From the IMG/VR virus record IMGVR_UViG_3300025102_000024, positions 1 through 61,894 of that record: a DNA stretch of 61,894 nt; one strand, 5' to 3'. Within the stretch, counting starts at the first letter, position 1. Every line of letters starts with the position of its first letter. The notes below the pieces were generated by a model. That model made no database searches. It had not been told where the DNA came from and worked only from the letters and a program-made list of their open reading frames with translations. Positions 1,218 through 21,402 of this stretch are shown one piece after another. The translations under genes were made by a program, and so were the position numbers. Origin of the DNA: a virus.

Positions 1218-2318
1218 CTATAGTTCTGCAGTTGCTGTATAACCAAATCCTGATGATTGACTATTAGAAGAAGATTGACGGAATCCGTTTGCAGTTGCTG
1301 CTAGTGCCGCTCCAGAACCTGATAAACCTATAAAAGCCATTGTTGGTGTTGTTCTCATTGCAACAGGAAATAACCAACTAGCAGTATTATTGTTATAGAC
1401 CATAAGTGTATCTGCAGGTACTGTTTGGAAATATCGTTGGCAACGTGCAAGTTCATCTCCGATACTGCGGTGCTCGAACGAGGTCGATACAGTACCAGTT
1501 TCAAATTGAACTCCTGTTAGGAAAATATCATTAGAAGTGCTATCAAAACAATTAACTTGTCCTACACTATTTCTAGCTCTATCAGCAACATCTCCCCAAT
1601 CTAACCATCCACCATCATCTGCCTGTGCAGTACCACTTGTATATGCACTACCTTGAGCAAAATACCAACTCATCCTCATACCTCTGGTATTGTCATTATC
1701 AAATCCGTCAGATGTAAATCCAGGAAAACTAAGAGTTACTTTTTGCCATGTATTAGCTGAACTAACAGTATATTTTCTAGAAATAAAAGCAGCACCACTA
1801 GTATTACTTAATTCATCACCATATAAACGAACCCAATGAATCCCTGCTTTTGGTGATTTAATCCAAAAACATAATGTAGTTGTTTCAGCACTCGAAGTTC
1901 CATATTTTAACCTTGTTAACTCTTGTCCTTCAAAACGATATTCAAGTTGAGTATATGTAGCAGCATTACTATCACCTCCAGCAGTCGTAACATCTAACTT
2001 TAAAGATTTAGCAAAACCTTGACCAGATGGAACATCTGTGCTTTGTGACATTGTTACGATTGAATAATTTGACTGAAATTGAAATCTATCAGGACCACCA
2101 AATCCTCCTCCAGCACCACCACTAGCATGACCTAAACCAGTAACCTGACCTCTTTGGGACACGTTCATGGCTCCGTTGATTATTAAATTACGATGAGAAA
2201 GTCCACCTCCCCCAGTCATTCCAGTTATTCTTGCAGTGCAAGTTCCATCTGATGCTGTTGTGATTGCATCACTCGTTGCACTATTGTGTCTGATTGCGTC
2301 TACTTTTAATGTGCTCAT
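1218..2318 (-). CDS. Modular fibre protein with the SHRN-type C-terminal domain
   Basis: A 366-aa virion-type protein. The N-terminal module is MSTLKVDAIRHNS, the shared start found in most fibre genes here. From about residue 40 comes a roughly 300-aa domain starting HRNLIINGAMNVSQRG and containing DRFQFQ, TLCFWIKSP, TGVQFETGTV and FEHRSIGDELARCQRYF, ending in a YTATAEL tail. Four other genes in the window (9425, 12683, 16438, 52874) have this domain. Its lectin/CBM-like sandwich character is inferred from alternating hydrophobic strands. The likely role is a tail-fibre or capsid decoration that contacts host glycans. It is the last gene of array 1 and overlaps its upstream neighbour by 4 nt. 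Confidence 0.82.
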   Translation of the reverse strand: MSTLKVDAIRHNSATSDAITTASDGTCTARITGMTGGGGLSHRNLIINGAMNVSQRGQVTGLGHASGGAGGGFGGPDRFQFQSNYSIVTMSQSTDVPSGQGFAKSLKLDVTTAGGDSNAATYTQLEYRFEGQELTRLKYGTSSAETTTLCFWIKSPKAGIHWVRLYGDELSNTSGAAFISRKYTVSSANTWQKVTLSFPGFTSDGFDNDNTRGMRMSWYFAQGSAYTSGTAQADDGGWLDWGDVADRARNSVGQVNCFDSTSNDIFLTGVQFETGTVSTSFEHRSIGDELARCQRYFQTVPADTLMVYNNNTASWLFPVAMRTTPTMAFIGLSGSGAALAATANGFRQSSSNSQSSGFGYTATAEL

Positions 2319-2872
2319 ACTAGTGCCCTCACAAAATGACCTGAAAATTCATTAATAGAATATTGTTGTCCGTTTGCAATAGTTATACTTGAACCTGTTG
2401 TATGATATCCAAAAATTTCCACATAATCACTTGATCCATTAAATGATACTAAAGAAGATATGAATGCAGATCTACTGGCAGCAAAATTATGTCTAAAATC
2501 ACAATTAACATATCTTGATCCATTTTTTTTAATATCAATAGCATAAACATTATTTACATTTACATAGTATATACTTGCAGTAATATAATAATATCCAGCT
2601 AATTGAGGTGTAAACCTGTAATTAGTTGAATGATCATAATATCCGTGTGAGTCAAATACCTCCGCATCAAATTGAATTTTAGTTGATGTATTATTTGATA
2701 TTGATTGAGTGTTATTATTTCTTGCAAAAAATACTGGTTTATATGTGTCTGTCAAGACTGTTCCATCAGCATTACCTGGCACCTTTAAGGTGCGATTTGC
2801 CGCTGGATTACTGTCAGGTGTTGTGAGAGAGACACTATTGCCTCCCGAATGTACTAATTTTATGTTACTCAT
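2315..2872 (-). CDS. Fibre protein with a C1q/TNF-like jelly-roll domain
   Basis: Predicted 185 aa. A short N-terminal adaptor (MSNIKLVHSGGNSVSL, with NRTLKVPG) is followed by a C-terminal domain of about 130 aa with the C1q-like pattern: FDAEVFDSHGYYD, YRFTPQLAGYYYITASIYY, IDIKKNGSRY and an aromatic ending (FSGHFVRAL). C1q-like heads are common trimeric receptor-binding tips in phages and bacteria, so this is probably a small trimeric fibre tip. Start and stop codons overlap with the neighbours. Confidence 0.8.
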   Translation of the reverse strand: MSNIKLVHSGGNSVSLTTPDSNPAANRTLKVPGNADGTVLTDTYKPVFFARNNNTQSISNNTSTKIQFDAEVFDSHGYYDHSTNYRFTPQLAGYYYITASIYYVNVNNVYAIDIKKNGSRYVNCDFRHNFAASRSAFISSLVSFNGSSDYVEIFGYHTTGSSITIANGQQYSINEFSGHFVRALV

Positions 2873-3564
2873 TATGCCACTCCATACATAGAAAATCTAC
2901 CAGTTGCTATATTATTTTGATTCGTGTATTGTAACTCAAGACCAGTTACTTCTCTGGAATCAGTGATAGCTCCATGTATATATTGCCCTCTTAAAGCTCC
3001 ATCACTACTCATATATGCGTTATGACCATGATATCTTAGTCGTCTGTTATTTTCAAAACCATGCAAGTAAATTGTGCAGTTCCAGTCCTCTTTGACATAA
3101 CCACTTGCTTCTAAATTACCAACATTATTATAATTTAATCTAAATCTATTCAATACACCAAAGTGTTCGTCTGCACTTACACCAACAGTTCCAGAATAAT
3201 AATCAGAGTTAGAATATAACGAAGTTCCGTTAGAACCATATCTTATTCTCATTTCAAAATCCTCATTATCAGACACAGATCTAACTCCATCCATCACAAT
3301 CATATATGTTTTAAAATCGGTAAATGCATTAGTAACATTAGATTCAGTAAAAGTTACCGCAGAAGTATTTGATGTAACATTAACTGTTGCTAATGGAACT
3401 AATCCACTAACTCCTGATGTCTTAGCATATGTCACTGCAGAATTTGCAATCTTAGCATTCGTGACAGCATTTGATGCTAATGTAGTATCATTCACAACAC
3501 CAGAACCAAGACCCCCAACTGAGAGTCCTGTTATACTTCCATCTCCGTTAATAGTTACTGGCAT
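2872..3564 (-). CDS. Modular fibre/virion protein
   Basis: Predicted 230 aa. The N-terminus is a short linker with repeated DTTLASNAVTNAKIANSAVT-like hydrophilic turns, common in phage fibres. The C-terminal ~165 aa begins GLVPLATVNVTSN and ends GRFSMYGVA. That C-terminal domain type recurs at the end of the 513-aa protein at 45578 (ending VVKLYGIK). A ribosome site (GGGAG) and a perfect late motif at 3584 precede the ATG. Receptor contact or virion decoration is inferred from context. Confidence 0.78.
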   Translation of the reverse strand: MPVTINGDGSITGLSVGGLGSGVVNDTTLASNAVTNAKIANSAVTYAKTSGVSGLVPLATVNVTSNTSAVTFTESNVTNAFTDFKTYMIVMDGVRSVSDNEDFEMRIRYGSNGTSLYSNSDYYSGTVGVSADEHFGVLNRFRLNYNNVGNLEASGYVKEDWNCTIYLHGFENNRRLRYHGHNAYMSSDGALRGQYIHGAITDSREVTGLELQYTNQNNIATGRFSMYGVA

Positions 3565-3583: not shown

Positions 3584-3591
3584 TATTTATA
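3584..3591 (-). promoter_or_regulatory. T4-type late promoter motif TATAAATA
   Basis: A perfect TATAAATA on the minus strand, 20 nt before the ATG at 3564 and overlapping the stop of the upstream gene. It matches the T4 late consensus read by the phage late sigma factor (gp55). Confidence 0.75.
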
Positions 3592-4159
3592 CGATGGTCA
3601 AGAAACTACCTGACGGTACTGTGACTGTGACACCAGATTTAATTGCGACTGGACCTGCTGCCATCGCATTTTTACCTGAACTTATAGTATAACTCACATC
3701 AACCGAATTGTCATTCTCAAAGAACACAGTATTTGTTGATGCACCACCAACAGGTGCTCCTGCTGGTAAGTTTATTAATTGTGAACCATCACCAAAGTAT
3801 GTGACGATACCAGATCCTACAGGTCCGACTGTTCCACCTGTACCAATTCTTACTCCACTTCTTGCTGTTAATATTCCTATCGAATCTACATTCGTTACGT
3901 CTTCGTATGTTAATGTTCCTGCAATACCAACAGTTCCATTGAACTTGGCATCACTTACAAAAGTTATTTCCTGTGTCGCACGATCTACATGAAAAGTAGT
4001 TCCAGTCGTGGTGATACCAACAGTACCAATACCCGACTGCGTTCCATCTAAGTGAAGTAGTAACTCTCCATTAGAATTTGTTATTTTTATTTTTTCGTTG
4101 ACTGATGCACTAGTAGGATCTGACTTTGCCTCAATACCATGAATTCTAAGGGTACTCAT
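3587..4159 (-). CDS. Modular fibre protein with the conserved GPV-type C-terminal cap
   Basis: Predicted 190 aa. The N-terminal module is MSTLRIHGIEAKSD. The middle contains the repeated GTLTYEDVTNVDSIGILTAR segment. The C-terminus is the short cap seen in six proteins of the window: GKNAMAAGPVAIKSG and then VTVPSGSFLTIV. There is no large C-terminal receptor domain, so this may be a shaft, adaptor or decoration protein. A CTAAATA late motif lies 22 nt upstream. Confidence 0.77.
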   Translation of the reverse strand: MSTLRIHGIEAKSDPTSASVNEKIKITNSNGELLLHLDGTQSGIGTVGITTTGTTFHVDRATQEITFVSDAKFNGTVGIAGTLTYEDVTNVDSIGILTARSGVRIGTGGTVGPVGSGIVTYFGDGSQLINLPAGAPVGGASTNTVFFENDNSVDVSYTISSGKNAMAAGPVAIKSGVTVTVPSGSFLTIV

Positions 4160-4181: not shown

Positions 4182-4188
4182 TATTTAG
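4182..4188 (-). promoter_or_regulatory. Late promoter motif CTAAATA with conserved flank
   Basis: Minus strand CTAAATAACTAAAAGGATAT, overlapping the stop of the gene at 4185. Nearly the same 20-nt block (TAAATAACTAAAAA then GATATA or similar) precedes the genes starting at 12113, 16231, 45530 and 50942, so it is an extended, repeated late-promoter block. Confidence 0.65.
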
Positions 4189-4682
4189 CCTGATACTTCA
4201 TAGATAATGAGTTGAGCTCCACCTCTCTCACCATCACCTACTGACTTGTTGACATTAAATGATGAACCGTTCGCACTTCCCCAAGGACCAGCAGCTAAAG
4301 TATATGTAATTTCTGATGATCCACCATTAACATCAACAACCATTTGATAATATCCACCCCATTGGTTATTATCATTTTTTGATTGATTATGCATCATGTA
4401 TCGACCTCCAGGATATGAATCTACTCCACCAATAGTCTTTTTTAAACCAACATACCAAGTGGAGTTGTTACCAGTATCTTCTCTTACTCTTAGTCTTATA
4501 TCTATTAAAATTTTACTGTCTGCTCTCACTGGAGTATATGTTGTACTCATGATATCTCCAGCTGCTGTTAAATCGAGAACTGTGTCAAGTTGTGCAACCT
4601 TCATTTGGATGATACCACCACAAGTTGAATTGGTTGATAGTCCATCTCTTGGAACGATTCGATTGGTTCTTAGTTCTGACAT
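4185..4682 (-). CDS. Modular fibre protein, GIIQMK-type jelly-roll domain
   Basis: Predicted 165 aa. The N-terminal module is MSELRTNRIVPRDGLST. From about residue 23, GGIIQMKVAQLD opens a beta-rich domain of about 140 aa that ends QLIIYEVSG. The proteins at 4682 and 8725 share this pattern (GGIVQVK at the start, SVMEV or TVMEI at the end), so the three are paralogues. It is probably a receptor-binding or decoration head. It overlaps the upstream gene by one base. Confidence 0.77.
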   Translation of the reverse strand: MSELRTNRIVPRDGLSTNSTCGGIIQMKVAQLDTVLDLTAAGDIMSTTYTPVRADSKILIDIRLRVREDTGNNSTWYVGLKKTIGGVDSYPGGRYMMHNQSKNDNNQWGGYYQMVVDVNGGSSEITYTLAAGPWGSANGSSFNVNKSVGDGERGGAQLIIYEVSG

Positions 4683-5188
4683 TATGCTGATACCTCCATA
4701 ACAGAAATTGAGGAAGACAAAGAATAATTTGTATCATCTGCTCTTCTATTAATACCTAACGCATAACTGCCACTTGTAGCTCTCGCCACTACTTTATAGG
4801 TATGAGAGCTAGTATCTCCTGGAGCATGTAAGATTTGAAGACCATGACCACTACTTAAATTTCCATCATCTTGTCTAACCATAGCGAAACCTCGTTCATT
4901 AGCACTAGCCCCTCCAGTTCCATTACCAATAAGAGTTGAATCAAAAAGTAATCTTAAAACTGCTGCATCTTCACAACTTGCAAATACATTAACTGTTACT
5001 AAAATTTTACTAGTAGAAAATTTAGGGGTTATATCAACACTTAAACCACTAACATCAACAAAACTAGTACTTGTTATTAATGTTTGATCTACTTTGGTAA
5101 CGCATTTAACTTGAACAATACCACCTCCACCACCAGTGGGAACACCACCAGTTGGAATTATTTTATCGACTCTTAATTCTGATGACAT
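4682..5188 (-). CDS. Modular fibre protein, GIVQVK-type jelly-roll domain
   Basis: Predicted 168 aa with the module MSSELRVDKIIPTGG at the N-terminus, a glycine linker (GGGG) and a beta domain from GIVQVKCVTKVDQT to SISVMEVSA. It is a paralogue of the adjacent 165-aa protein, although the inner strands differ almost completely. That fits tandem duplication followed by rapid divergence. The role is inferred as part of a tail fibre or capsid fibre. Confidence 0.77.
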   Translation of the reverse strand: MSSELRVDKIIPTGGVPTGGGGGIVQVKCVTKVDQTLITSTSFVDVSGLSVDITPKFSTSKILVTVNVFASCEDAAVLRLLFDSTLIGNGTGGASANERGFAMVRQDDGNLSSGHGLQILHAPGDTSSHTYKVVARATSGSYALGINRRADDTNYSLSSSISVMEVSA

Positions 5189-5190: not shown

Positions 5191-5550
5191 TTATGAAGGT
5201 TCAGTTGGCCAGTTTACGGATGTTAAGTCTAATTCATAATCAGATCCTAACTTTGGTGTTTGTGTTGTAATATCACGAAGTGCTTGACGATATGTTCTCC
5301 ATGCAGTTGATAAGGTAACATCCTTACCTGCTCTCCAGTCTGTCAATGCAATTCTTCGATCTCTTTCAATACGCAATAATCTCATTGGTTCTGCTGCATC
5401 AAGTGAAGAAATCTTACTATTGATTTCTGTTTCTGTTGGTTTTGTCTGACTACTATCTAACCATTCAAGACCAGAGTAATCAGATCCACGAAGAGTCCAC
5501 TGTGCTCCTGGCTTTAATTCTTGTAGTGCTGCTGGAATGTCGTATTTCAT
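5191..5550 (-). CDS. Phage tail/fibre assembly chaperone-like protein
   Basis: Predicted 119 aa. The C-terminal ~65 residues show the assembly-chaperone pattern known from many tailed phages (family resembling Pfam Phage_tail_APC, by memory): RLLRIERDRRIALTDWRAGK, STAWRTYRQALRDI and a final VNWPTEP. The N-terminal part contains GAQWTLRGSDYSGLEWLD. Such proteins help fold or trimerise tail-fibre proteins. It follows the 186-aa fibre gene at 5566 in transcription order, as T4 gp38 follows gp37. A perfect late motif sits only 5 nt before the ATG. Confidence 0.75.
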   Translation of the reverse strand: MKYDIPAALQELKPGAQWTLRGSDYSGLEWLDSSQTKPTETEINSKISSLDAAEPMRLLRIERDRRIALTDWRAGKDVTLSTAWRTYRQALRDITTQTPKLGSDYELDLTSVNWPTEPS

Positions 5551-5565: not shown

Positions 5566-6126
5566 TTAATTTACAATCTCATATGCAACCATTGTAACAG
5601 AATTAGATATTCCACCTACTGCATCATGAAATATGAAATTGTGACTACCACCACTTCCCCTTGCTCTTGCATATGCCATATATTTCATCACTGAACCAGC
5701 AGCTAATCCACCAGTATCAATTGCTTGACCAGAGTGTGGTCTATATGCTGGTGATCCACCAAAGAAAGCATCAACATAAGCTAGAATACTTGCAGTACCA
5801 CCATCTGCTGATCTATAGATTGATGTTACTCCTTGAACACCAGTACCATTAGCATCTTGAGCACCACCAGTGATAGTTGCAACACAATAACTTGTACCTG
5901 CAGTAGTGCCACCTGCTAATTTTCTAGTAAATTGTGCAAAGAGTCCAGTATTAACATCACCATCCGAAGTGGTAGAAAAATCAGTGCTAAGATGACCGTA
6001 TGCTGATGTTATTATTGTTCCTGATGGAGCATCAACCCAATTTCCACCCAAATTAATGTTACTTGGAATCACTAGTGTGCTTCCACTACTTGATATTTGT
6101 GTGCTTCCTAAATTTAATGTTCCCAT
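5566..6126 (-). CDS. Virion/fibre protein
   Basis: Predicted 186 aa starting MGTLNLGSTQISSSG and then NINLGGNWVDAPSGTII, followed by a Ser/Thr/Gly-rich beta domain (YRSADGGTASILAYVDAFFG, MKYMAYARARGSGGSHNF) ending MVAYEIVN. The overall style matches T4-like cyanophage structural proteins, but I cannot place it in a named family. It sits between a 2OG-Fe(II) oxygenase gene and a fibre-assembly chaperone-like gene, either of which could act on it. Confidence 0.72.
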   Translation of the reverse strand: MGTLNLGSTQISSSGSTLVIPSNINLGGNWVDAPSGTIITSAYGHLSTDFSTTSDGDVNTGLFAQFTRKLAGGTTAGTSYCVATITGGAQDANGTGVQGVTSIYRSADGGTASILAYVDAFFGGSPAYRPHSGQAIDTGGLAAGSVMKYMAYARARGSGGSHNFIFHDAVGGISNSVTMVAYEIVN

Positions 6127-6131: not shown

Positions 6132-6647
6132 TTATACTGTTCTAGGTATATAATTAAAATTTATAACGATGCGTTCTTTTGTATCACTACTTGAAGAACC
6201 TGCATGTTTCAGATTTGTTGGAAAAGTTACTAATCTATTTTCCTTACTCTGAACTCTTGAACCATTCTCAAAGTATGTTCCACCATCATTATTATTAACA
6301 TAATATACAGATGTCATAGATTCTGACAAATTTTTAAAATCATTATGCATTGGGGTGACTCTCACACTATCAGTTTTCATTCTCAAATTTGCTTTTATTT
6401 TAATCCAAGCCACAGGATTAATCTGTTGCATTATAGGAGATATGATGGATGTTGAATTTGACACCATTCCTTTAGTTGGATTCCAAAAAACATGAACGAA
6501 TTGAAAGTCATCAGGATGATCATCTTTTCCAACACAAAAAGAATTATAGACCCAAGTGCAATCAACATAGAACCACGTTAATATTTCACTCCAGACACTA
6601 AAAGGTAAAAAATCATCAACGACTTTTACCCCAGAAGGTAAATTCAT
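6132..6647 (-). CDS. 2OG-Fe(II) oxygenase (prolyl-hydroxylase-like)
   Basis: Predicted 171 aa with the double-stranded beta-helix ligand set: H101-x-D103 (MHNDF), distal H148 (LKHAG) and R159 for 2-oxoglutarate (KERIVINFNY). The N-terminal DDFLPFSVWSEIL is typical of phage members of this superfamily. Such enzymes hydroxylate proteins, nucleic acids or small molecules using Fe(II), O2 and 2-oxoglutarate; the substrate here is unknown. Because it lies inside the fibre array, hydroxylation of fibre residues is a reasonable guess. A paralogue sits at 12134. Confidence 0.85.
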   Translation of the reverse strand: MNLPSGVKVVDDFLPFSVWSEILTWFYVDCTWVYNSFCVGKDDHPDDFQFVHVFWNPTKGMVSNSTSIISPIMQQINPVAWIKIKANLRMKTDSVRVTPMHNDFKNLSESMTSVYYVNNNDGGTYFENGSRVQSKENRLVTFPTNLKHAGSSSSDTKERIVINFNYIPRTV

Positions 6648-6667: not shown

Positions 6668-7252
6668 CTACACGATAACCCATGCACCGTCAAGTGTCAT
6701 AGTTGAACCTAATGTAACTGGTCCTGCATTCAATGCATTTCTTCCAGTTCCAATATAATAACCATTGATATTATCTAGTCTTGCGTTGAATACAAGTGAA
6801 CCATCACCAATGTAAATACCTCTAAATGAATTTGCAGCACCAACAGTTTCATAATTATCAACTGTGGTGGTTTGAATACCAAGATTCTTAACAGTTGTGA
6901 TACCTGCTGTGCCAAATTTAAATTCACTACCTGATGGAAGACCAGTCAGATCAGAACCATCACCAACAAACTTAGTCGCAGTCGCAACACCAGTGATTAC
7001 AACACCACTATTATTTGCCTGTGCCTTAACTGCTCCACTAAACTTAATTGCAGAAGCATCAATACCTGTTAAGTTTGCACCACTACCACTAAAAGAAGTC
7101 GCAGTAACAACACCAGTGAACTTACCATCACCACCGACATCCAAAGCAGATGAAGGAATTGTAGATCCGATACCCACATTCCCACCAGAATTCTGCGTGA
7201 CACCTCCAGTGCCAGATTGATGTTTCCAATTATTAAAACGGATGTCAGACAT
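6668..7252 (-). CDS. Modular fibre protein with the GPV-type C-terminal cap
   Basis: Predicted 194 aa. The N-terminal module MSDIRFNNWKHQSGTGG is followed by GIGSTIPSSALDVGG, then repeat units of the kind TGVVTATSFSGSGANLTGI and TGVATATKFVGDGSDLTGLP. The C-terminus is RNALNAGPVTLGSTMTLDGA and then WVIV, the shared cap. These Gly/Thr/Ala-rich repeats are the shaft-like building block used throughout both arrays. A structural role is inferred. Confidence 0.77.
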   Translation of the reverse strand: MSDIRFNNWKHQSGTGGVTQNSGGNVGIGSTIPSSALDVGGDGKFTGVVTATSFSGSGANLTGIDASAIKFSGAVKAQANNSGVVITGVATATKFVGDGSDLTGLPSGSEFKFGTAGITTVKNLGIQTTTVDNYETVGAANSFRGIYIGDGSLVFNARLDNINGYYIGTGRNALNAGPVTLGSTMTLDGAWVIV

Positions 7253-7270: not shown

Positions 7271-7576
7271 TTATGATGGTTTATCTGCAATCAACTTTGC
7301 TTTCCATGCATCTTTGACTGATGTAGTCCATACAGCATTGCATATTGCTTTGACTTCATCCGCAATATCTGTTGTACCATCTGGTTCTTTTGTTAATGGA
7401 TTATCAACAAGATTATCTGATGCATCTAAAGTGCCTGGATCAAGAACAAATCTATTAAAAGATCTTGTGAGTTCTACTCCATCTTTTTTGATGACTGTAG
7501 CTTTTCGGACCTGTACTGCTTTGTACTGTCCAACGACTTCTATTTTATCGTATTCTATTGATTCTGCAAGTGCCAT
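7271..7576 (-). CDS. Conserved cyanophage protein, possible assembly factor
   Basis: Predicted 101 aa: MALAESIEYDKIEVVGQYKA, VQVRKATVIKKDGVELTRSF, a variable acidic segment, and a C-terminal helix AICNAVWTTSVKDAWKAKL. The YDKIEVVG..K.vqvR.atvI start is familiar from small proteins encoded beside fibre genes in T4-like cyanophages. Its biochemical role is not known to me. A GGAGG ribosome site (GGAGGATTTCCCTAATG) fixes the start. Confidence 0.7.
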   Translation of the reverse strand: MALAESIEYDKIEVVGQYKAVQVRKATVIKKDGVELTRSFNRFVLDPGTLDASDNLVDNPLTKEPDGTTDIADEVKAICNAVWTTSVKDAWKAKLIADKPS

Positions 7577-7627: not shown

Positions 7628-8725
7628 TTATGCGTCTGTCATATAAGTAATATTATATTCAACTAAAAAATCTTTATTATGAAAAGTTTTATTTGTAGCG
7701 TATGATATTAAAGCACCAGAGGCATCATGAGTAGCTCTGCTTATCCAGAATGAAAGATTTGAGCCACTCATACCTACAGCAATCTGACCTTGATTATAAT
7801 TGTATACATTATTATTAGTTCCATACCAGTCAGTAGTCTGCCAAGTAACTGACCCGTAAGCGTGTCTGTAACCTGATCCATTAGGTGCAAAAGGAACTCC
7901 TGATATTTTTAATATATCGGTTTGCGAAGTAAATAAAGGTTTTGTACCCCCACCTTGTAATAATCCAGCAAGATTAACTAATCTTCCAATTTTTGTATAT
8001 TTTCCTTGTGCTGCTGCATAAGCTGGAGTGTTAGACAAACCAACAAGATTTGGACCCCAATTTCCTTCTTCATAGTCGTCAAGAGCGTTGGCTGCTGCGG
8101 TGTCTCCGTTAAATGATATTCCTCCACCAGATTGAAACCTTACTTCCTCAGTATTATTGACTCCAAAAATTATTGGAGCATTTCCACTTTGCCAAACTTG
8201 TGCTGCGTTTGCTCCTCCTATCGCACCACTACTTGTTCCTAATTTATTAATTGAGAAATAACCACCACTTCCACTAGATTGCTGTAGTTTTACTGTTGCA
8301 AAAGATGTATTTGTTGAGTTTTGAACCAGCACAGTTGGTATTGCTGGTTTAGATACATTGAGATTCCCTGCACCTACTGCTAAATCACTACCATCAAAAG
8401 TTAAATTAGATTCACCATTTAAGTTAACACCACTTCCACCAGTTATAACTCTGTTGTCTGCATTGTTTGCTATGGTTGCTTGTGCTGGTAATGAAGTTAA
8501 GTTTGCACCACTAATTGCTGGAAGTGTACCAGTTAATTGTCCAGCAGGTATACTGGTTAAGTTTGCACCACTACCAGTTACAGCACCAGTTACATTACCA
8601 GTTACATTACCACTAAAACTATTTGCAGTAACAATACCAGAAACAATCGCACCAGTATCTGAGAAGGTTACTGTTGATAACCCACTTCGGTTTATTATTT
8701 TATTTACTCTAATTTCTGATGCCAT
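7628..8725 (-). CDS. Modular fibre protein, YTKIGR-type C-terminal domain
   Basis: Predicted 365 aa. The N-terminal module is MASEIRVNKIINRSGLSTVT; shaft repeats GIVTANSFSGNVTGNVTGAV and LTGTLPAISGANLTSLP follow. From about residue 215 the DDYEEGNWGPNLVG and GKYTKIGRLVNLAGLLQGGG pattern marks a C-terminal domain common in phage fibres from marine samples, ending YNITYMTDA. Receptor binding is inferred. It overlaps the upstream gene by one base. Confidence 0.78.
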   Translation of the reverse strand: MASEIRVNKIINRSGLSTVTFSDTGAIVSGIVTANSFSGNVTGNVTGAVTGSGANLTSIPAGQLTGTLPAISGANLTSLPAQATIANNADNRVITGGSGVNLNGESNLTFDGSDLAVGAGNLNVSKPAIPTVLVQNSTNTSFATVKLQQSSGSGGYFSINKLGTSSGAIGGANAAQVWQSGNAPIIFGVNNTEEVRFQSGGGISFNGDTAAANALDDYEEGNWGPNLVGLSNTPAYAAAQGKYTKIGRLVNLAGLLQGGGTKPLFTSQTDILKISGVPFAPNGSGYRHAYGSVTWQTTDWYGTNNNVYNYNQGQIAVGMSGSNLSFWISRATHDASGALISYATNKTFHNKDFLVEYNITYMTDA

Positions 8726-9417
8726 TATCCTTTTATTTCCATTACTGTGATGTTAGAGATATATCTACCTCTCTTATTAGTATCACTATCACTATTAGAT
8801 CTATTCAAATGAATATATTGCTGACTGCCAGCATTATGATAAAAAGCATAATGAAACTTATGCTCGTTTGTATCTGCACATGAGATGTAAACGTGAATAG
8901 GTATGGTAAAAACTCCCTCAGTATTTCCACTATCACCACCAGAAAGAGATCGTCTTCTACTACTAGCTGCATCTCCAAGAGCTCCAGCTGTGGTAACAGC
9001 AGAATTATTATCATACAACATTGAATTAACAGCTAATCCATTTGAACCAATAACAACCTGCCCTGTTATTAAAAAGAAATTTGAAGCACTAGAAGCAGTG
9101 ATAGTAACTCTCAATAAATCATTATTAAAACTCCAAATAGCACCAGAATTAGTATTATCACTATATGCCGATGTTAATGTAGTATTTTTAACTTGAACAA
9201 TACCACCAGTAGGGACAGGTATATTTGTTAAGTTTGCACCACTACCACTGAATGAAGTTGCAGTACATACACCAGCAAATTGTGCGTGACCTTGATGAGA
9301 TATTGTTGCACCAATACCAGTCGTTCCAGTCAGAGGTCCCACGGTCAATCCAGTGGTAAGACCGACACGATCTCCACCATTCTCTCCAACTATACTTGTA
9401 ACTCTAATTTCTGACAT
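8725..9417 (-). CDS. Modular fibre protein, GIVQVK-type jelly-roll domain
   Basis: Predicted 230 aa with N-terminal module MSEIRVTSIVGENGGDRVGL, one shaft repeat (VCTATSFSGSGANLTNIPVP), then a beta domain from GGIVQVKNTTLTSAYSD to ISNITVMEIKG. It is a paralogue of the heads at 4185 and 4682. A perfect TATAAATA late motif lies 4 nt before the ATG. Confidence 0.78.
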   Translation of the reverse strand: MSEIRVTSIVGENGGDRVGLTTGLTVGPLTGTTGIGATISHQGHAQFAGVCTATSFSGSGANLTNIPVPTGGIVQVKNTTLTSAYSDNTNSGAIWSFNNDLLRVTITASSASNFFLITGQVVIGSNGLAVNSMLYDNNSAVTTAGALGDAASSRRRSLSGGDSGNTEGVFTIPIHVYISCADTNEHKFHYAFYHNAGSQQYIHLNRSNSDSDTNKRGRYISNITVMEIKG

Positions 9418-9421: not shown

Positions 9422-9429
9422 TATTTATA
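9422..9429 (-). promoter_or_regulatory. T4-type late promoter motif TATAAATA
   Basis: Perfect on the minus strand. It overlaps the stop codon of the gene at 9425 and lies 4 nt before the ATG at 9417. Confidence 0.62.
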
Positions 9430-14172: not shown

Positions 14173-15462
14173 TTAAACCACCACAAAATTACCATCAACA
14201 TTCAGAACACCATTGACTGATACAGGACCTGCCATCAAACCATTCATTGAAGTTCCAATATAATGATTACCATTGATTGCATTATCATATAGTATCATAC
14301 CATTACTAATATAAAGTCCTCTTGCAGAATTACCAACACCTTGTAGATCAGCATCATCAGTGCTTGTTGTTCCAACACCAACGATTGCAGAAGAAGTTTG
14401 AATACCAGTGACTGATGTAGTGAATGCACTTGAACCTCCACCACCAGCAATGCTAATATCAATTACATTACCAGTTTGCTTAAATGTATTACCAGCACCA
14501 ACAAAGTTTAATGTGCGAACTGTTCCAATCGCAACACTACCAGACTGAATACCAACTATTGGATCAGAATCTGTAATCGTTACATTACCTGATCTACCTA
14601 AGAATCCTGTGACACCACTTGTAGAAGCACCAGCAAATCCAATATGTCTTACGTGAATGACTGTGCCATTCGCAGGTGCAGATGCAAAGGTAAGTGAATT
14701 AGAACCTGTGCCTGATACTGTATAAGATCTTGTATTCTGTGAATCAGATGGATACTGCATCACACCATCTAATGCAACTAATATATTATCATTATTAACG
14801 ACTGCTCTTGATAAAGTAAATGTAGTTGTGCTTCCATCAGCAGTAAATGTATCTACCTTATTATCTGAGATGTCAAATGTTGGAAAATTATTTGCTACAA
14901 GATTTCCAAATATAACATCAGTTGAAGATGGTGCTGCTGCGAATACAATTATAGAACCATTTGAATCTATACCATATCCATTTGCAGGTGATGTAGAATC
15001 GTGTGGTCTTTGGATGACACCATTATGTGATAAGAACAACTGTGCTGCTCTTGTCATCTGTGCTTTTGTGCCACTATCATATGTTGCAACAAACTTTGTA
15101 TTGACACTATCAAATGCAACACTTAATGTATGTGCTGCTCCAGTTCCAGTTCCCGTAATATTAATTTTGTTTCCAGCAGCTGCATCAGATGCATTTGCTG
15201 CTAATTGAATTGTATTATGATCTACTTTAATTGTAAAATATACAGTCCCGTTTGAAAGACCTGTGATATTTCCTCCACCACCATTCGTATATGTGACTCT
15301 TGAACCTGTAAGGAAACGATGATTATTTAATGTAATTGTATCAGCAGACTGACTGACTACTGCTGCATTTGAACCATCAAATGTCGTTGTGAACGCAAGA
15401 TCATCTAAGATCTTAAAACTATTATTCTCTCCAGTTGCGTTACGATTACCTAGATATGCCAT
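14173..15462 (-). CDS. Virion/fibre structural protein with the GPV-type cap
   Basis: Predicted 429 aa. It starts MAYLGNRNATGENNSFKILD, a form also seen in the next gene (MPYLGRELTSGNYLKLDD). It contains beta-rich segments such as TITLNNHRFLTGSRVTYTNG, FTADGSTTTFTLSRAVVNND, NILVALDGVMQYPSDS and IHVRHIGFAG. The end (GTSMNGLMAGPVSVNGVLNV, then DGNFVVV) is the shared cap. The TxxFTL and LDGVxQ patterns are typical of large cyanophage structural proteins. The exact place in the virion is unknown. Confidence 0.78.
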   Translation of the reverse strand: MAYLGNRNATGENNSFKILDDLAFTTTFDGSNAAVVSQSADTITLNNHRFLTGSRVTYTNGGGGNITGLSNGTVYFTIKVDHNTIQLAANASDAAAGNKINITGTGTGAAHTLSVAFDSVNTKFVATYDSGTKAQMTRAAQLFLSHNGVIQRPHDSTSPANGYGIDSNGSIIVFAAAPSSTDVIFGNLVANNFPTFDISDNKVDTFTADGSTTTFTLSRAVVNNDNILVALDGVMQYPSDSQNTRSYTVSGTGSNSLTFASAPANGTVIHVRHIGFAGASTSGVTGFLGRSGNVTITDSDPIVGIQSGSVAIGTVRTLNFVGAGNTFKQTGNVIDISIAGGGGSSAFTTSVTGIQTSSAIVGVGTTSTDDADLQGVGNSARGLYISNGMILYDNAINGNHYIGTSMNGLMAGPVSVNGVLNVDGNFVVV

Positions 15463-15463: not shown

Positions 15464-16231
15464 TTATACCACCACTAAAACTGAACCTGTTGCAACATCA
15501 ATTGTTGCTCCGACTGCAACACTGACCGTACCAATCAATAATCCATTCTTTCCAGAAGGAACATTAATACTACTACTAATATCATTATCAATTAGAAGTG
15601 CACCATCAGTAATTGCAATGTTACCTAATGATTGTAATGCACCTTCGGAGTTTGCTGTACCAACTGCTGATGCTGTACCAACACCAACAACTTTACTTGT
15701 GGCAACACCGACTGCATCAGATGCCCAAGTACCAGCAGCACCAACACCACCTCCTCCTCCTTGGAAGAATACTGTTGCAATACCAACATCTGCGTTAAAA
15801 AATCCTGTAGTAACACCAGGACCTGCAAAGTTGATTTGAGTAACTGCTGTACCAACAGTGACTGATGAAGTGTTGTTGTAATTAGATGTTGAAACACCTA
15901 ACTTTGCACTATCATTTAATTGTGTTAATCCAACAGAACCATCAGCTGGAACTCCAATTCCTAATGCAAGACCAAGAACAATAATAAAAGCATCATCAGA
16001 TGCACCAGGTGCAGTCGCAAATGTTATTTCATTATTATTAATCTGATATGCAGAGTCTGCTTCTTGGATTACACCAGCAACTGATACTAGAAGTGAGAAT
16101 GATGAACCAGGAAAAAAATCACTACCACCACTCTTCAATTGAAAAGTGACAGTAGATCCATTAAACTGAGATGATATGTCATCTAGTTTAAGATAATTTC
16201 CTGATGTGAGTTCTCGACCTAAGTATGGCAT
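15464..16231 (-). CDS. Virion/fibre structural protein with the GPV-type cap
   Basis: Predicted 255 aa, a shorter relative of the 429-aa neighbour: MPYLGRELTSGNYLKLDDIS, STVTFQLKSGGSDFFPGSSF, LLVSVAGVIQEADSAYQINN, a glycine-rich hinge (FQGGGGGVGAAG) and the cap GKNGLLIGTVSVAVGATIDV then SVLVVV. The two adjacent genes share both ends, which suggests duplication. A structural role in tail or fibre is inferred. Confidence 0.77.
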   Translation of the reverse strand: MPYLGRELTSGNYLKLDDISSQFNGSTVTFQLKSGGSDFFPGSSFSLLVSVAGVIQEADSAYQINNNEITFATAPGASDDAFIIVLGLALGIGVPADGSVGLTQLNDSAKLGVSTSNYNNTSSVTVGTAVTQINFAGPGVTTGFFNADVGIATVFFQGGGGGVGAAGTWASDAVGVATSKVVGVGTASAVGTANSEGALQSLGNIAITDGALLIDNDISSSINVPSGKNGLLIGTVSVAVGATIDVATGSVLVVV

Positions 16232-16245: not shown

Positions 16246-16252
16246 TATTTAG
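16246..16252 (-). promoter_or_regulatory. Late promoter motif CTAAATA with conserved flank
   Basis: Minus strand CTAAATAACTAAAAAGATAT, 14 nt before the ATG at 16231 and overlapping the stop of the gene at 16249. Confidence 0.62.
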
Positions 16253-16434
16253 TCGGCTGCTTCTGGACTATTGCCAGCAGCTACCCATGCGAGATAGACC
16301 TGATAATCTGTATTGTTCTCTTTAAAAGGAATTACTTTTCTTATATCACCATTCATAATTTCTACACCATCAGGTTCTGTTACATCTACACCATTTTTCA
16401 TTAGTTTATAGATTGGGTTTGTTGGGTATGCCAT
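16249..16434 (-). CDS. Small protein following an SHRN-type fibre gene
   Basis: Predicted 61 aa: MAYPTNPIYKLMKNGVDVTE and a C-terminal end YLAWVAAGNSPEAAD. A second copy of this family lies at 52704 (ending YLSWVSAGNTAEAAD). Each directly follows an SHRN-type fibre gene in transcription order. The W-A/S-AGN-EAAD tail is seen in small cyanophage proteins. It may be a fibre-assembly helper or small virion component; this is inference from position. Confidence 0.7.
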   Translation of the reverse strand: MAYPTNPIYKLMKNGVDVTEPDGVEIMNGDIRKVIPFKENNTDYQVYLAWVAAGNSPEAAD

Positions 16435-16437: not shown

Positions 16438-18192
16438 TTAAATCTCCGCATTAAATGCTACAAATTTTTGTGTGTTTGATCCAAATGAATGGGCAGAACA
16501 TCTAACTGTCTGCCCTTGTCTCGATGCATCACCAGACATGATTAGGCAACTTTGATTATGTCCTGTTTTACCAGTATCTTGTGAAATTTGATGATGATAT
16601 TGAGCACTATTACCAAACAATTTCTCATAAACATATGCACCAGAACCTCCAGCAAGAGCTTCTAATGTAGGTTCTGCTCTCATAGTGGTTGGGAAATATA
16701 CGGGTATGAATATATTACCTGAATAATATTGATGACCAGTGCCTAAGATTTCATAAGTATCTGTGCACATCGCAAAGTAATAACGTTGACAACGAGTGAG
16801 TTCATCTGCTACGCTGCGGTGCTCAAATGTGGTGGCTGAAGATCCAACTTCGAGTTGAACTCCCGTCACATCAAAGGTAGCATTGGATGTATTTGCCCAA
16901 TTTTGTGAGTAGTCAGGTGTTCTGTTTGTTGAACTAGATGACTGCCATGCGTTAAGAGTGTGTCCACTTGTAGTATAATAAGTACCATACCAAGGTATAA
17001 AGTGAACAACTAAACCTTCTTCAGTATTATTATGTACGGATACATTTGAATTTCCAGGAATTGTTTTTGTTATCTTTGTCCAAGTATTTGCACTTAGAGT
17101 ATAAGAAAAAGTATAAGTTTGACCTGTTCCATCACGACTATTCAACCAACCATAGTAGGTTCCAGCTAAACTCGATCTCACCCAAGCACTTAGAGTCACA
17201 TAACTTGAAGATGATTTGAAATTCCAACCACTATTTGCGACATTTTGTGCTTCTATAGTTTGACCAATAAATCTATAATCAGTATCAGTAGTTGTATTAC
17301 TTGTATTAGTTAATCTTAAATAATTACTAAAACCATTTTCAAATGCAGTTCCACTTTGCTCCGAAACTTGTGATTGAGTAACTCCCCCACCACTCCAGTT
17401 ATTAGTCCATCTATCAATTGTATTCATACCAGAGGATGTAGATGATGTTCCTCTTTGAGCTATAGTCATAGCTCCGTTGATTATTAAATTTCTATAACTT
17501 CTTGCAGCAGGTAAACCTGTAAGATTTGCGCCACTAATTGCTGGAAGTGTACCAGTTATGTTTGCAGCAGGTATATTTGTTAAGTTTGCAGCACTAATCG
17601 CAGGTAATGCACCACTTAGTTTTGAAGAAGTTAATGTTGATATTCTTGCGTCGGCAACCGTTCCTGTTAGATTACCAGCAGGAATACTTGTTAAGTTTGC
17701 ACCACTTCCAACAAAACTTGTTGCTGTTACAACACCAGTTACATCAATACCTTGTGAATTTGAAGTGACTGCAGAACCAACTACTACAAGGTTTGCAGTT
17801 GCAGTGGTGGCTGATAATGCACCAGTGAGTGTCGTAGAACCACCAACTTGAATACCACCTGTAAAGTTTGCAGTGGTAGAAGTTTTAATATTATCTGTTG
17901 ATGCAACTCCCGTTAATGATGAACCATCTCCAGAAAATCCAGAGGCAGTTACAATACCAATAAATCTTGCCCCACCATCATCAAATATTGTTGATCCTGC
18001 ACCGATTGGAGTGTCACCACCAAGAACATTTATTCCAGCAGCCTCTACTCCTACACTGTGAACATTTGTAGATCCAGTTTTAAAATTTGAAAAGGTTGCT
18101 ATACCAGCAGAATCAAGACCACCAACATTTAAAACTTGATGAGTATTGATACCAGTTTGAGTTATGAGAGTTCTGTTGGTGGATAATGCCAT
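16438..18192 (-). CDS. Long modular fibre protein with the SHRN-type C-terminal domain
   Basis: Predicted 584 aa. The N-terminus is MALSTNRTLITQTGINTHQV. The shaft has many repeats (GIVTASGFSGDGSSLTGV, ATSFVGSGANLTSIPAGNLT, then several SAANLTNIPAANITG and NLTGTLPAISGANLTG units). The C-terminal domain opens with YRNLIINGAMTIAQRGTSST and has TGVQLEVGSSATTFEHRSVA, ELTRCQRYYF and the end FVAFNAEI. It is the longest shaft of the five SHRN-type proteins, and its DNA carries many short direct repeats that could drive recombination. Confidence 0.82.
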   Translation of the reverse strand: MALSTNRTLITQTGINTHQVLNVGGLDSAGIATFSNFKTGSTNVHSVGVEAAGINVLGGDTPIGAGSTIFDDGGARFIGIVTASGFSGDGSSLTGVASTDNIKTSTTANFTGGIQVGGSTTLTGALSATTATANLVVVGSAVTSNSQGIDVTGVVTATSFVGSGANLTSIPAGNLTGTVADARISTLTSSKLSGALPAISAANLTNIPAANITGTLPAISGANLTGLPAARSYRNLIINGAMTIAQRGTSSTSSGMNTIDRWTNNWSGGGVTQSQVSEQSGTAFENGFSNYLRLTNTSNTTTDTDYRFIGQTIEAQNVANSGWNFKSSSSYVTLSAWVRSSLAGTYYGWLNSRDGTGQTYTFSYTLSANTWTKITKTIPGNSNVSVHNNTEEGLVVHFIPWYGTYYTTSGHTLNAWQSSSSTNRTPDYSQNWANTSNATFDVTGVQLEVGSSATTFEHRSVADELTRCQRYYFAMCTDTYEILGTGHQYYSGNIFIPVYFPTTMRAEPTLEALAGGSGAYVYEKLFGNSAQYHHQISQDTGKTGHNQSCLIMSGDASRQGQTVRCSAHSFGSNTQKFVAFNAEI

Positions 18193-18193: not shown

Positions 18194-18523
18194 TTATGTT
18201 ATCTCCATAATTGTCAAAGCAACATCTAAACTATTATTTACATCACTTAATGCTGTAACTGTATCCACTGCCTCTACAACTATCTTATTTCCTTGCATGA
18301 TTTCTAATGCAGATCCTTGTGGGATAGGGACATTCTTTAATATGTTTATATCATCTCCATTTGTTGCTCTTGATATTCCGATTCCAACATTAATTCCTTG
18401 ACCAGATACATTCGTACAAGTTACACCAATGATAACTGTAGTCGTCGCACCAGGTACTGTGTATATTCCAACTGTGGATACACCAATATTATTTTTCGAT
18501 TTTAATTTAAAAGTATTAGCCAT
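18194..18523 (-). CDS. Conserved virion-associated protein
   Basis: Predicted 109 aa: MANTFKLKSKNNIGVSTVGI, a central PGATTTVIIGVTCTN and the end SLDVALTIMEIT. The strands alternate with few charged clusters and no signal peptide or membrane span. Small proteins of this type lie beside the large structural protein in T4-like cyanophages. It may be a small head/tail decoration subunit; the function is unknown. A TATAAATA motif lies 38 nt upstream. Confidence 0.72.
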   Translation of the reverse strand: MANTFKLKSKNNIGVSTVGIYTVPGATTTVIIGVTCTNVSGQGINVGIGISRATNGDDINILKNVPIPQGSALEIMQGNKIVVEAVDTVTALSDVNNSLDVALTIMEIT

Positions 18524-18570: not shown

Positions 18571-21402
18571 TCATCCCAAAGCAATCGCCAGAGCAACAAC
18601 ATCAGCGTTCGTAACACCACCAGCAGATGTGACAGTCGCAGTATCACCTGAAACAGCAGCAGCAATGCCTGAACCAACAAAGTTGATTGTAGTGACACTA
18701 CCAGCAGTTCCGACTGTTGATCCTTCATCTTTAATTGATAGACCCTCAACACGAACTGTAGCAATACCAGTATTAGATACTGCATCAACACTTACTAGTG
18801 ATCCCTCAAAGTCAAGTCCTGTGGCACCAGTTGCTTTAGCACCACTACCCTCAGATACTCCTAGACCTGCTATTGCATTGACAGTCACCGTTGCAATACC
18901 TGCACCAACAGCTGCATCAGCAGTGACGACACTACCTAAGAAGTTAATTGTGGAGATACTATTTGCAGAACCAACGATAGTATTCTCATCACGAATTGAA
19001 ATACCTTCAATCGCACCAGCAGGAGCAGAAGTTACCCAAGTTGGAGCAGCTCCAGCACCATTTGATTGTAGGATTTGTCCTGAACTACCTGTGTCTAATA
19101 AATCTGTATCATTATTTGAATCTTGATATAGGATTTGATTAGTTCCATTGATTGCAAGGTCAGTTGCAAGAGTTGCAGTGCCAGATAAGTTACCAGTCAC
19201 ATTACCAGTTAAATCACCAGAGAAACCACCACTTGATGTAGTGACACCCGTGACCACAACACCAAATCCATTTGCTTGTGCCTTGACTGCTCCACCAAAT
19301 TTTAATGCAGATGCATCTATACCTGTTAAATTACTACCATCACCACTGAAACTTGTAGCAGTAACAACACCTGTTGCAATGACACCTGTTGCATTTAAAG
19401 TTACCCCTGAACCAACAACAGCACCACCTGAAACTGTAAGTGCACCTAATGTTCCGACACTTGTAAGTGAAGAACTGACAACATTAGCACCAAGAGTAGT
19501 TGCAGAAAGAACCTCAGTTCCATTAATTTTATAAACCTTACCAGATGCAACATCAAGATGCTCACTTGATTTTAATGAGTCAGCAGTATTATTATATCTT
19601 ATAAACTTCCTTATACCCGTTGAACCAATTCCAATACCTGCACCATCTAATAATGCGTTTGTTGGAACTGTTGATGCAATACCAACTACAAAGTCTCCAA
19701 ACTCTATGTCACCATTGTGAACTGAGAATGTTGTACCATCAACAAACAAGTCACCTTTAATTCTTACCTTTCCTGTATTATCACCAACTGCAGCAGGGTC
19801 GATAAAGAGTTCAGCAGGTCCTGTAATACTATTGGTTGTGATATTAACTCCAGTTCCACTCGCACCTGTTGATAATCTAGAGAAGGTTGCAATACCTGTG
19901 CTGTTTAAACTTCCATTACCAAGTGCAGTGTTGATACCTGTTAATCCAGAACCATCTCCAACGAAGGTATTCCCAGTTATGGTTCCCGATGCGGTTATAT
20001 TTCCAGTTACATTTAATAGTGATCCATTGAATGTTAAATTACCACTATCCTCTACAGCACCTGAACCACCTGCAAGAACCACACGACCAGAAGTTAAGTC
20101 TGATACGATTAGTGACGCTGCTGATAAATCCGTTCCGTTAAAGACTAAGTTTCCACTATCCTGTAAAGCACCAGACCCTCCAACAGTTACAACACGACCT
20201 GATGTTAAATCACTTACAGTTGCAGATGATAAAGTTGTTTCTCCACCAGTTACTGATAATCCACCACGAAGAGTTGCTGCATAGTTACTATTAACAACAT
20301 TAGAGTTATTCTGGACAGCATTGCCCATGTACCCGTGGTTTGTACATTGGTAGTGAAGAACTATTGGAGTTTCATCACCAACTGCTATTTGTGTATATGC
20401 ACCAGAGTTACCAGCAGTTCCGTTTACGGTTACTCCTGTGCTGTAAGTTGTTGTTTTATCTGCCTCAAGATAGAAGTTTATAGGGTGATTACTATTACTA
20501 TTATCACTCTGATCAAATTTATAAGTTCTACCTGGTGTAAGTGTTATGAATGGAGAGAATACTCCATCAATTTTATATCCTAAACTACTACCTTGCCCTT
20601 GATATCTGTGTGTAGAGTCCTTTGATGCAACAGTTACAGTATAAGTTTTTACTGTATCACTATGAGGTGCCCTTAAATCATCAAACCCAGAAATTGATCC
20701 TGAGACATCTAAACTATTGCGAATAGTCGCAGCATAGTTTGTATTTAATACATTGGCATTGCTTTGTATCGCATTGCCCATATAACCATGATTTGTGCAT
20801 TGATAGTGAAGCACCACTGGTGTCTCATCACCTACAACGATCTGAGTATAAGCACCAGAGTTACCAGCAGTTCCATTAACAGTTACACCTGTGCTATAAG
20901 TAGTCGTCTTATCTGACTCTAAGTAAAAGTTTATGGGGTGATTACTATTACTATTATCACTCTGATCAAATCTATATGTTCTACCTGGTGTGAGGGTTAA
21001 AAAGGGAGACTCAACACCATCTACTTTATATCCTAAACTACTTCCTTGTCCGTTATATCTGTGATCGTTAGTCTTTGTTGCTACAACAACTGTAAATACT
21101 TTGATTGTATCAGAGTGTGGTGCTCCTAGATTATCGAATCCACCGATTGATCCACGAACATCTAACTTTGATAAGGGAACTGTTGTCCCTATGCCAACTG
21201 AATTACTATAATGTATAGACAATCCACCATATGCCTCAGTCCACGGAGTTAAATTGGTGACAGTTGCTAACCCTACACCTTCTCTCTCAGTGTAAAGAAA
21301 ACCGTCATATGTATTAAGTGCTAATTCTCCTAGTTGAAGGTCAGACCCAGCTGGTCGTTTCCCCTCAATCGCAGACCTTTTCAGTCTAAATGGTGTCGCC
21401 AT
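18571..21402 (-). CDS. Large virion/fibre protein with two cupredoxin-like repeats
   Basis: Predicted 943 aa. The N-terminus MATPFRLKRSAIEGKRPAGS with LQLGELALNTYDGFLYTERE is a phage-structural start. Residues about 82-232 and 233-383 are a tandem duplication of 151 aa. Each copy has the pattern H (SNSNHPINFYLE) then HYQCTNHGYMGN, i.e. candidate copper ligands H155, C202, H205, M208 and H306, C353, H356, M359. The rest is shaft repeats (GDGSNLTGIDASALKFGG, DLTSGRVVTVGGSGALQDSG) and a C-terminal Ala-rich end. Copper binding is inferred from motif spacing only; the fold may use the residues differently. Confidence 0.8.
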   Translation of the reverse strand: MATPFRLKRSAIEGKRPAGSDLQLGELALNTYDGFLYTEREGVGLATVTNLTPWTEAYGGLSIHYSNSVGIGTTVPLSKLDVRGSIGGFDNLGAPHSDTIKVFTVVVATKTNDHRYNGQGSSLGYKVDGVESPFLTLTPGRTYRFDQSDNSNSNHPINFYLESDKTTTYSTGVTVNGTAGNSGAYTQIVVGDETPVVLHYQCTNHGYMGNAIQSNANVLNTNYAATIRNSLDVSGSISGFDDLRAPHSDTVKTYTVTVASKDSTHRYQGQGSSLGYKIDGVFSPFITLTPGRTYKFDQSDNSNSNHPINFYLEADKTTTYSTGVTVNGTAGNSGAYTQIAVGDETPIVLHYQCTNHGYMGNAVQNNSNVVNSNYAATLRGGLSVTGGETTLSSATVSDLTSGRVVTVGGSGALQDSGNLVFNGTDLSAASLIVSDLTSGRVVLAGGSGAVEDSGNLTFNGSLLNVTGNITASGTITGNTFVGDGSGLTGINTALGNGSLNSTGIATFSRLSTGASGTGVNITTNSITGPAELFIDPAAVGDNTGKVRIKGDLFVDGTTFSVHNGDIEFGDFVVGIASTVPTNALLDGAGIGIGSTGIRKFIRYNNTADSLKSSEHLDVASGKVYKINGTEVLSATTLGANVVSSSLTSVGTLGALTVSGGAVVGSGVTLNATGVIATGVVTATSFSGDGSNLTGIDASALKFGGAVKAQANGFGVVVTGVTTSSGGFSGDLTGNVTGNLSGTATLATDLAINGTNQILYQDSNNDTDLLDTGSSGQILQSNGAGAAPTWVTSAPAGAIEGISIRDENTIVGSANSISTINFLGSVVTADAAVGAGIATVTVNAIAGLGVSEGSGAKATGATGLDFEGSLVSVDAVSNTGIATVRVEGLSIKDEGSTVGTAGSVTTINFVGSGIAAAVSGDTATVTSAGGVTNADVVALAIALG
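20254..21159 (-). repeat. Tandem 453-bp duplication inside the 943-aa gene
   Basis: Two in-frame copies (20707-21159 and 20254-20706) encode 151-aa cupredoxin-like units. The protein repeat is highly similar while many third codon positions differ, so the duplication is old but held at protein level. Confidence 0.85.

Follow-up and report, generated by a model that had tools for sequence, protein, structure and literature searches.

We analysed a stretch of 61,894 bases, the window, which is the entire IMG/VR record IMGVR_UViG_3300025102_000024, a linear fragment. It comes from a T4-like cyanophage and carries psbD, psbA and a transaldolase-like gene, along with further genes usual in that group. 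The window carries two arrays of modular fibre genes whose C-terminal heads are exchanged between related phages, and whose N-terminal modules are conserved position by position. Our preferred reading, held with moderate confidence, is that these genes specify fibre (adhesin) subunits of the virion that form an ordered set, are expressed together, and have fixed roots and exchangeable heads.

Array 1, 1218..21402, minus strand: 25 co-directional open reading frames (ORFs), comprising 19 of fibre type (including a 943-residue protein), two oxygenases and four small accessory genes.
Array 2, 44616..56738, minus strand: 10 fibre-type ORFs and one accessory ORF of 55 residues.

Modular build of the array proteins

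The initial annotation had described proteins that mostly begin with a short shared module, continue with the same shaft units and differ in their heads, and this description is borne out. The N-module, roughly M-[AST]-x-[ILV]-[RK]-x-[NDT]-x-[IV], stands at the start of 17 of the 29 fibre-type ORFs when the pattern is anchored, against a chance expectation of 0.4 (maximum 5 in 5000 shuffles); the other 12 begin without it. Modelled alone with AlphaFold2 (AF2), it gives poor structures, with a predicted local distance difference test score (pLDDT) of 61-71. The shaft units are DNA-level repeat families common to both arrays, a TATSF..NLTG unit in 17 copies and an LTYEDV unit in 8. Hidden Markov models (HMMs) find five SHRN, four C1q-like, three GIVQVK, one YTKIGR and one glycine-rich head, together with seven caps, and so reproduce the earlier counts for the first three classes. 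The array proteins are homologous to tail fibre families, among them phrog_4492 (E down to 8e-55) and phrog_6942.

Some corrections are needed. The arrays do consist largely of fibre genes, and the earlier account left out six other ORFs, namely two 2-oxoglutarate (2OG)-Fe(II) oxygenases plus four small genes of an accessory or chaperone-like kind, as well as an eleventh ORF of array 2 (52704-52871, 55 residues) that the 60-residue cut-off of the ORF list had hidden. The LamG protein is present in array 2 (47136-50285, with LamG and DUF7483) and lacks the N-module.

Exchange of heads between relatives

After a megablast search with array 1 had matched almost no named phage at the nucleotide level, relatives of the array genes were sought by protein searches and in IMG/VR. 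The window and most relatives are fragments, and counts over loci include related phages, not independent events. One relative, G001 (IMGVR 3300046171_000275), runs parallel to the greater part of the window in gene order, has both arrays at corresponding places and shows about 70-95% DNA identity where it can be aligned.

When the headed genes (numbered A1_ and A2_ as listed below) are set beside their counterparts, the shared part comprises only the first 25 to 200 residues. N-termini and shafts at corresponding positions are mostly 85-100% identical, and the heads are unrelated or strongly diverged. This is visible at the DNA level: A1_13 matches L088 (G002) at 92.7% identity for 64 codons from its start and is unrelated beyond them, A1_01 shares 97.6% identity with L056 over 42 codons, and A2_10 is 95% identical to its counterpart in G001 over codons 7-80, with a diverged remainder. 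The last 90 residues are well conserved in just one of about 28 headed-gene pairs (A1_02 in G003). In long cap genes, the C-terminal 90 residues are 81-100% identical in all 14 pairs, or 15 with A2_04; compared as 15/15 against 1/27, the two kinds of C-terminus differ with a Fisher p of about 1e-10.

Cultured phages behave likewise. Four Synechococcus phages from host strain MW02 (RB11-B, RN05-S, S-B05 and S-B43) show the swap pattern in 9 of 13 orthologous fibre genes, where the first 30-90 residues are mostly 93-100% identical and identity then drops to 10-40%. Some swaps are internal, with conserved flanks on both sides. Of the 36 best pairs of closely similar heads, 19 combine proteins with different N-modules; a few of these involve truncated or mis-started ORFs. 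Thus, the exchangeability of C-terminal heads on these fibre or adhesin proteins, earlier read from the layout of a single genome, is seen directly between relatives. Of 23 breakpoints, 12 lie no more than 5 residues from a shaft or SHRN motif, compared with 18% of random positions, and the pattern would fit head exchange by homologous recombination in the repeated shaft DNA.

Array 1 is not an assembly artefact, because contig G008 (L122, IMGVR_UViG_3300006737_000440), from an independent metagenome, is 99.97% identical to window positions 1-16070. It is practically the same virus, with its heads unchanged over 16 kb, and no head swap within the population was seen in this sole near-identical contig over the 16 kb compared.

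We envision the following mechanism. Each headed protein consists of a position-specific N-terminal module, a shaft of recurrent units and, at its C-terminus, a head whose fold is often a carbohydrate-binding one. Homologous recombination in the near-repeat shaft DNA or at conserved head-start motifs would swap heads between phages and positions, and at some loci a small accessory gene specific to the head class would be exchanged along with the head. Cap-only proteins and N-modules are held constant. By exchanging tips, the phages apparently keep pace with host surfaces as these change.

Small accessory genes follow the head class

The YLEW family consists of ORFs of about 55 residues, most ending YQ-x-YL-x-W-x-x-x-GN, with 30 copies across loci and no Pfam match. 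All 30 stand directly behind an SHRN-head gene, and none stands behind any of 48 GIVQVK, 22 C1q, 72 cap or 27 glycine-rich genes (p about 1e-15 on 23 unique sequences). Among classified genes, those of family PF16778 lie behind GIVQVK (14) or C1q (3) heads and never behind SHRN, cap or glycine-rich heads. At two cultured loci, MSRVR and MSAIN, the small ORF is swapped along with the head. The general rule that every chaperone travels with its head was rejected: it holds at two loci and is contradicted at two others. From position, and for PF16778 also from the known chaperone family, we infer a chaperone role for these small ORFs, for which the fibres of V22 and A5 offer a tested precedent of a downstream chaperone (PMC7289586, PMC10579305).

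One shared site or many fixed positions

The initial annotation had further proposed that the many heads dock on one virion site, and here the evidence points the other way. For every one of the 17 N-modules, the match to a counterpart from another phage (identity over 30 residues up to 100%) exceeds that to any sister in the window (20-63%). In G003, about 21 of the 29 fibre-type ORFs are matched by a counterpart of 60% identity or more, and both arrays run in matching order. Purifying selection acts on most of the N-modules and caps tested (pooled ratio of nonsynonymous to synonymous polymorphism, pN/pS, 0.23). A TAAATA element resembling a late promoter lies within 60 bases upstream of 20 of the 35 genes, where 1.5 are expected (maximum 7 in 5000). 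The late promoter of T4 is TATAAATA, with which the element is compatible.

If there were a single docking site for many alternative heads, the arrays would be a host-range reservoir of which one or a few members are used at a time. The short consensus common to the N-modules and the wide variety of heads would suit such a reservoir. Heads competing for one site, however, need no individual N-modules, so the position-specific lineages (17/17) speak against it. Promoter-like elements at many individual genes, the co-retention of array order and most members across relatives, and the conservation of cap-only genes are, moreover, what co-existing parts would look like. Nor did we find, in the scanned ORFs and the two arrays of the window fragment, an invertase, a reverse transcriptase or long well-matched inverted repeats able to select one gene. 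Altogether we regard the single-site reservoir as unlikely; the simplest reading of the sequences is that the arrays would specify a set of parts made together.

Programmed switching by a diversity-generating retroelement or an invertase was also rejected, since no supporting gene or segment flanked by inverted repeats was found in the window fragment. Its scanned ORFs gave no Pfam match to a reverse transcriptase or invertase, and its inverted repeats are weak and distant in array 1 and absent from array 2.

Several points weigh against an ordered set with fixed roots. The closest match of an N-module in another phage could partly reflect plain vertical descent, which also gives closest matches elsewhere, so the single-site reservoir is argued against without the case being closed. 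The selection signal is unclear for some short, barely diverged N-modules (A1_01, A1_06 and A2_09), and the poor AF2 models of the isolated N-module count on the same side. With respect to the linked exchange of small genes, the A1_07 N-terminus is 87% conserved in G001 although the gene upstream differs, and RN05-S and RB11-B have a common head and not a common PF16778 chaperone. Finally, the search for virion proteomes yielded none from a phage carrying exactly these modules; the virion of S-CREM2, the source of the published virion proteome that we compared, holds several fibre-region products, none of which matches the array modules, and the region examined in this phage is without HMM-detectable module copies (PMC10665884).

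Tail, capsid or passive island

The products could decorate the capsid as head fibres, not the tail, with lectin heads tethering virions to cell-surface or extracellular sugars. Some PHROG matches are indeed annotated 'head and packaging, virion structural protein', and trimeric C1q/TNF-like heads would suit surface decoration. Yet tail fibre or tail fibre assembly families make up the majority of the annotated PHROG matches, the SHRN genes of S-H34 stand directly behind baseplate wedge genes, and the array of Bellamy adjoins genes annotated tail fibre and baseplate wedge initiator. A capsid location therefore seems improbable to us.

Even less probable, in our opinion, is that the arrays are largely a passive pile-up of duplicated or transferred fibre genes, a metaviromic island in which many members have little function. 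Islands that contain tail fibre, C1q, lectin and oxygenase genes have been reported for marine phages (PMC3909814), and a highly variable head repertoire with repeated shaft units is what such an island might contain. On the other side, the window showed no disrupted ORF in the arrays, their order is conserved, promoter-like elements stand upstream, and the ratio of nonsynonymous to synonymous substitution rates (dN/dS) is well below 1 for most N-modules and caps.

Cap domains fused to N-modules

Two array 2 proteins, A2_02 and A2_05, have in their interior an additional N-module, overlooked in the initial annotation, which follows a cap-type domain and a linker. Among 163 matches to the GAPxFPNG-type N-module across all loci, 37 are internal, and in 37 of 37 the preceding residues are the same ..(D/N)(I/V)LG.. 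domain end. These contexts were read by eye from the HMM listing, in which some loci are near-duplicates; a strict regular expression for the cap domain gave only 8 unique proteins and was too narrow. The fused cap-type domain is homologous to the free cap A1_17 (BLAST 2e-4 to A2_05; HMM 8e-6 and 5e-5 to two further fused proteins). Because cap-type domain and internal N-module are fused in this way, free N-modules may, by Rosetta-stone logic, seat on free caps. Caps might then be conserved adaptors whose C-terminal ends serve as sockets for the position-specific N-modules of the headed fibres. Sockets and plugs would both be fixed by position, and swapping would be confined to the sugar-binding tip, accompanied at some loci by a dedicated accessory gene; we put this forward as a tentative and rather doubtful idea. 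All the fusions may come from a single event, so the seating of N-modules on caps is offered as conjecture.

Head folds

The AF2 model of A1_06 (mean pLDDT 84) has an all-beta head. Its best fold matches in the PDB come from Pgp3, with a TNF-like domain, and from two TNF-like lectins, PLTL and BC2L-C. In A1_14 the SHRN head covers about residues 80-286, with pLDDT mostly above 90, and resembles both a putative sugar-binding protein and modules of the CBM4, CBM16 and CBM61 families; its core reaches template modelling (TM) scores by target length of about 0.5-0.67 with the CBM4/16/61 structures. A2_06 has CBM_4_9 (PF02018) above the Pfam cut-off. A PDB sequence search with the SHRN heads, the C1q heads and the 943-residue protein returned nothing significant. 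Since the modelled GIVQVK and SHRN heads have carbohydrate-binding-like folds, sugar binding by the heads is likely.

Relation to known systems

Fibre-tip swapping is classical in T4 gp37/gp38. Like T4 gp37/gp38, Mu Tfa and V22/A5 (PMC7289586, PMC10579305), the arrays combine a conserved proximal part with an exchangeable distal, putatively receptor-binding end and a small probable assembly gene directly downstream, which in those systems can travel with the fibre end and here does so at some loci and not at others. Systems of the gp37/gp38 type have one fibre gene and one chaperone, whereas here there are about 18 headed genes in two ordered arrays with class-specific accessory ORFs. phiKp24, CBA120 and G7C (PMC9700779) likewise have many receptor-binding proteins per phage, with modular N-terminal parts and differing C-terminal specificities. 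Their fibres dock on other fibres, which here is suggested indirectly by the fusion of cap-type domain and internal N-module. They also use T4 gp10-like docking domains and depolymerase tips; in the arrays the N-terminal part has about 10-25 residues, the heads are lectin-like and the caps may be the docking parts. No gp10-like docking domain came up in the window fragment, where the Pfam scans covered every array ORF except a single short one.

Metaviromic islands, defined by poor metagenomic recruitment, share with the arrays variable carbohydrate-binding, tail fibre, C1q, lectin-like, Fe(II)-oxygenase and tail-fibre-assembly genes, and conserved N-terminal with variable C-terminal parts; the passages compared do not mention ordered N-modules, invariant caps, class-specific accessory ORFs or cap/N-module fusions (PMC3909814). 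Cultured Kyanoviridae (RB11-B, RN05-S, S-B05, S-B43, Bellamy, P-TIM68 and S-SRM01) have arrays whose N-modules, shafts, heads and accessory ORFs are related to these, with each gene annotated on its own as tail fibre, endosialidase, carbohydrate-binding or hypothetical; the literature searched yielded no paper describing their array logic. Fibre-tip swapping, multi-fibre phages (PMC9700779) and marine hypervariable islands with such genes (PMC3909814) are already known. As far as our searches show, the scale, the position-specific roots, the invariant caps, the small ORF specific to a head class and the cap/N-module fusion are new.

T4-like cyanophages are abundant in the oceans and the determinants of their host range are poorly understood; their adhesion genes are known to change under selection (PMC9910659, PMC6224464). 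If the ordered-set reading is true, host range in this group would have to be deduced from which heads are combined at which positions, and no longer from individual tail fibre genes. The sequence is enough to assign a head to its class, and the small ORF that follows the head is a second marker. RB11-B, RN05-S, S-B05 and S-B43, with one host, different heads and near-identical roots, make the idea directly testable.

Genes of the arrays

All genes below are on the minus strand. Array 1:

A1_01, 1218..2318: N-module and SHRN (CBM4-like) head; first 30 residues 93% identical in G003/G007, head diverged.
A1_02, 2315..2872: C1q-like head, kept in G003, replaced in G002 and G004.
A1_03, 2872..3564: fibre-type, own N-terminus; G003 and G007 carry a GIVQVK head at this position.
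A1_04, 3587..4159: N-module, LTYEDV shaft and cap; nearly full length conserved among relatives.
A1_05, 4185..4682: N-module and GIVQVK head.
A1_06, 4682..5188: N-module and GIVQVK head; TNF-like lectin fold in the AF2 model.
A1_07, 5191..5550: Phage_tail_APC (PF16778) tail assembly chaperone, directly downstream of A1_08.
A1_08, 5566..6126: short fibre-type protein, head unclassified.
A1_09, 6132..6647: 2OG-Fe(II) oxygenase within the array.
A1_10, 6668..7252: N-module, TATSF shaft and cap; C-terminus 89-100% identical in three relatives.
A1_11, 7271..7576: small conserved protein, phrog_6228.
A1_12, 7628..8725: N-module, shaft and YTKIGR head.
A1_13, 8725..9417: N-module, TATSF shaft and GIVQVK head.
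A1_14, 9425..10624: N-module and SHRN head; AF2 core a CBM4-like jelly roll.
A1_15, 10629..10967: small accessory protein, phrog_9114, whose gene immediately follows one with a C1q head.
A1_16, 10967..11641: N-module, TATSF shaft and C1q-like head.
A1_17, 11664..12113: LTYEDV and TATSF shaft and cap (of cap17 type, a homologue of the fused domain of A2_05).
A1_18, 12134..12679: second 2OG-Fe(II) oxygenase-like gene, below the Pfam cut-off.
A1_19, 12683..14161: N-module, both shaft units and SHRN head; N-terminus 80-97% identical in G001-G003, head replaced.
A1_20, 14173..15462: cap gene, conserved over its full length.
A1_21, 15464..16231: cap gene, conserved over its full length; its N-terminal domain recurs in S-TIM5 and S-SRM01 proteins annotated virion structural.
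A1_22, 16249..16434: accessory ORF of about 60 residues, YLEW family, directly downstream of SHRN-head gene A1_23.
A1_23, 16438..18192: fibre with SHRN head; in G001 conserved only up to about residue 99.
A1_24, 18194..18523: 109-residue protein, identical in G001, G002 and G003.
A1_25, 18571..21402: 943-residue tail-fibre-like protein; it has a TATSF unit and a tandem pair of cupredoxin-like repeats and is a conserved anchor.

The two tandem repeats of A1_25 measure 300 nucleotides each, are 80% identical and carry the cupredoxin-like motif HYQCTNHGYMGN; relatives of the protein occur in Bellamy, P-SSM2, S-TIM5 and the Methylophilales phage Melnitz. Besides the two oxygenases of array 1 (6132-6647 and 12134-12679), a third 2OG-Fe(II) oxygenase-like gene, judged by eye only, lies outside the arrays at 27830-28360. 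As a conjecture, the substrate of these oxygenases could be the fibre proteins or the host surface.

Array 2:

A2_01, 44616..45530: N-module, LTYEDV, TATSF and C1q-like head.
A2_02, 45578..47119: cap-type domain fused to internal N-module, LTYEDV and head; first ~190 residues conserved, head swapped.
A2_03, 47136..50285: the LamG and DUF7483 protein, no N-module.
A2_04, 50295..50942: N-module, shafts and short C-terminal domain; full length conserved in G003.
A2_05, 50962..52695: cap-type domain (homologous to A1_17), internal N-module, LTYEDV and head.
YLEW accessory ORF of 55 residues, 52704..52871: directly downstream of SHRN gene A2_06.
A2_06, 52874..54169: N-module and SHRN head; CBM_4_9 above the Pfam cut-off.
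A2_07, 54166..54411: N-module and cap.
A2_08, 54408..54644: N-module and cap.
A2_09, 54652..55437: N-module, GNVTG repeats and C1q-like head; G003 has an SHRN head at this position.
A2_10, 55446..56738: N-module, LTYEDV and glycine-rich head (PF21722).

Around the arrays

Between the arrays, at 29926-43174, lies an island of sugar genes: glycosyltransferases of families 25, 15, 11 and 2, sugar epimerases, a mannose-6-phosphate isomerase and an NAD synthase. Sugar genes also adjoin the fibre arrays of S-SRM01 and S-B05. At 29185-29713, a direct repeat of 107 nucleotides occurs in three copies around a reading frame resembling a high-light-inducible protein. Three plus-strand ORFs without assigned function lie at 58848-60544, in a window that has few plus-strand genes. 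A beta barrel resembling a cyanophage outer-membrane protein (PF24653) adjoins array 2 at 57313-57684.

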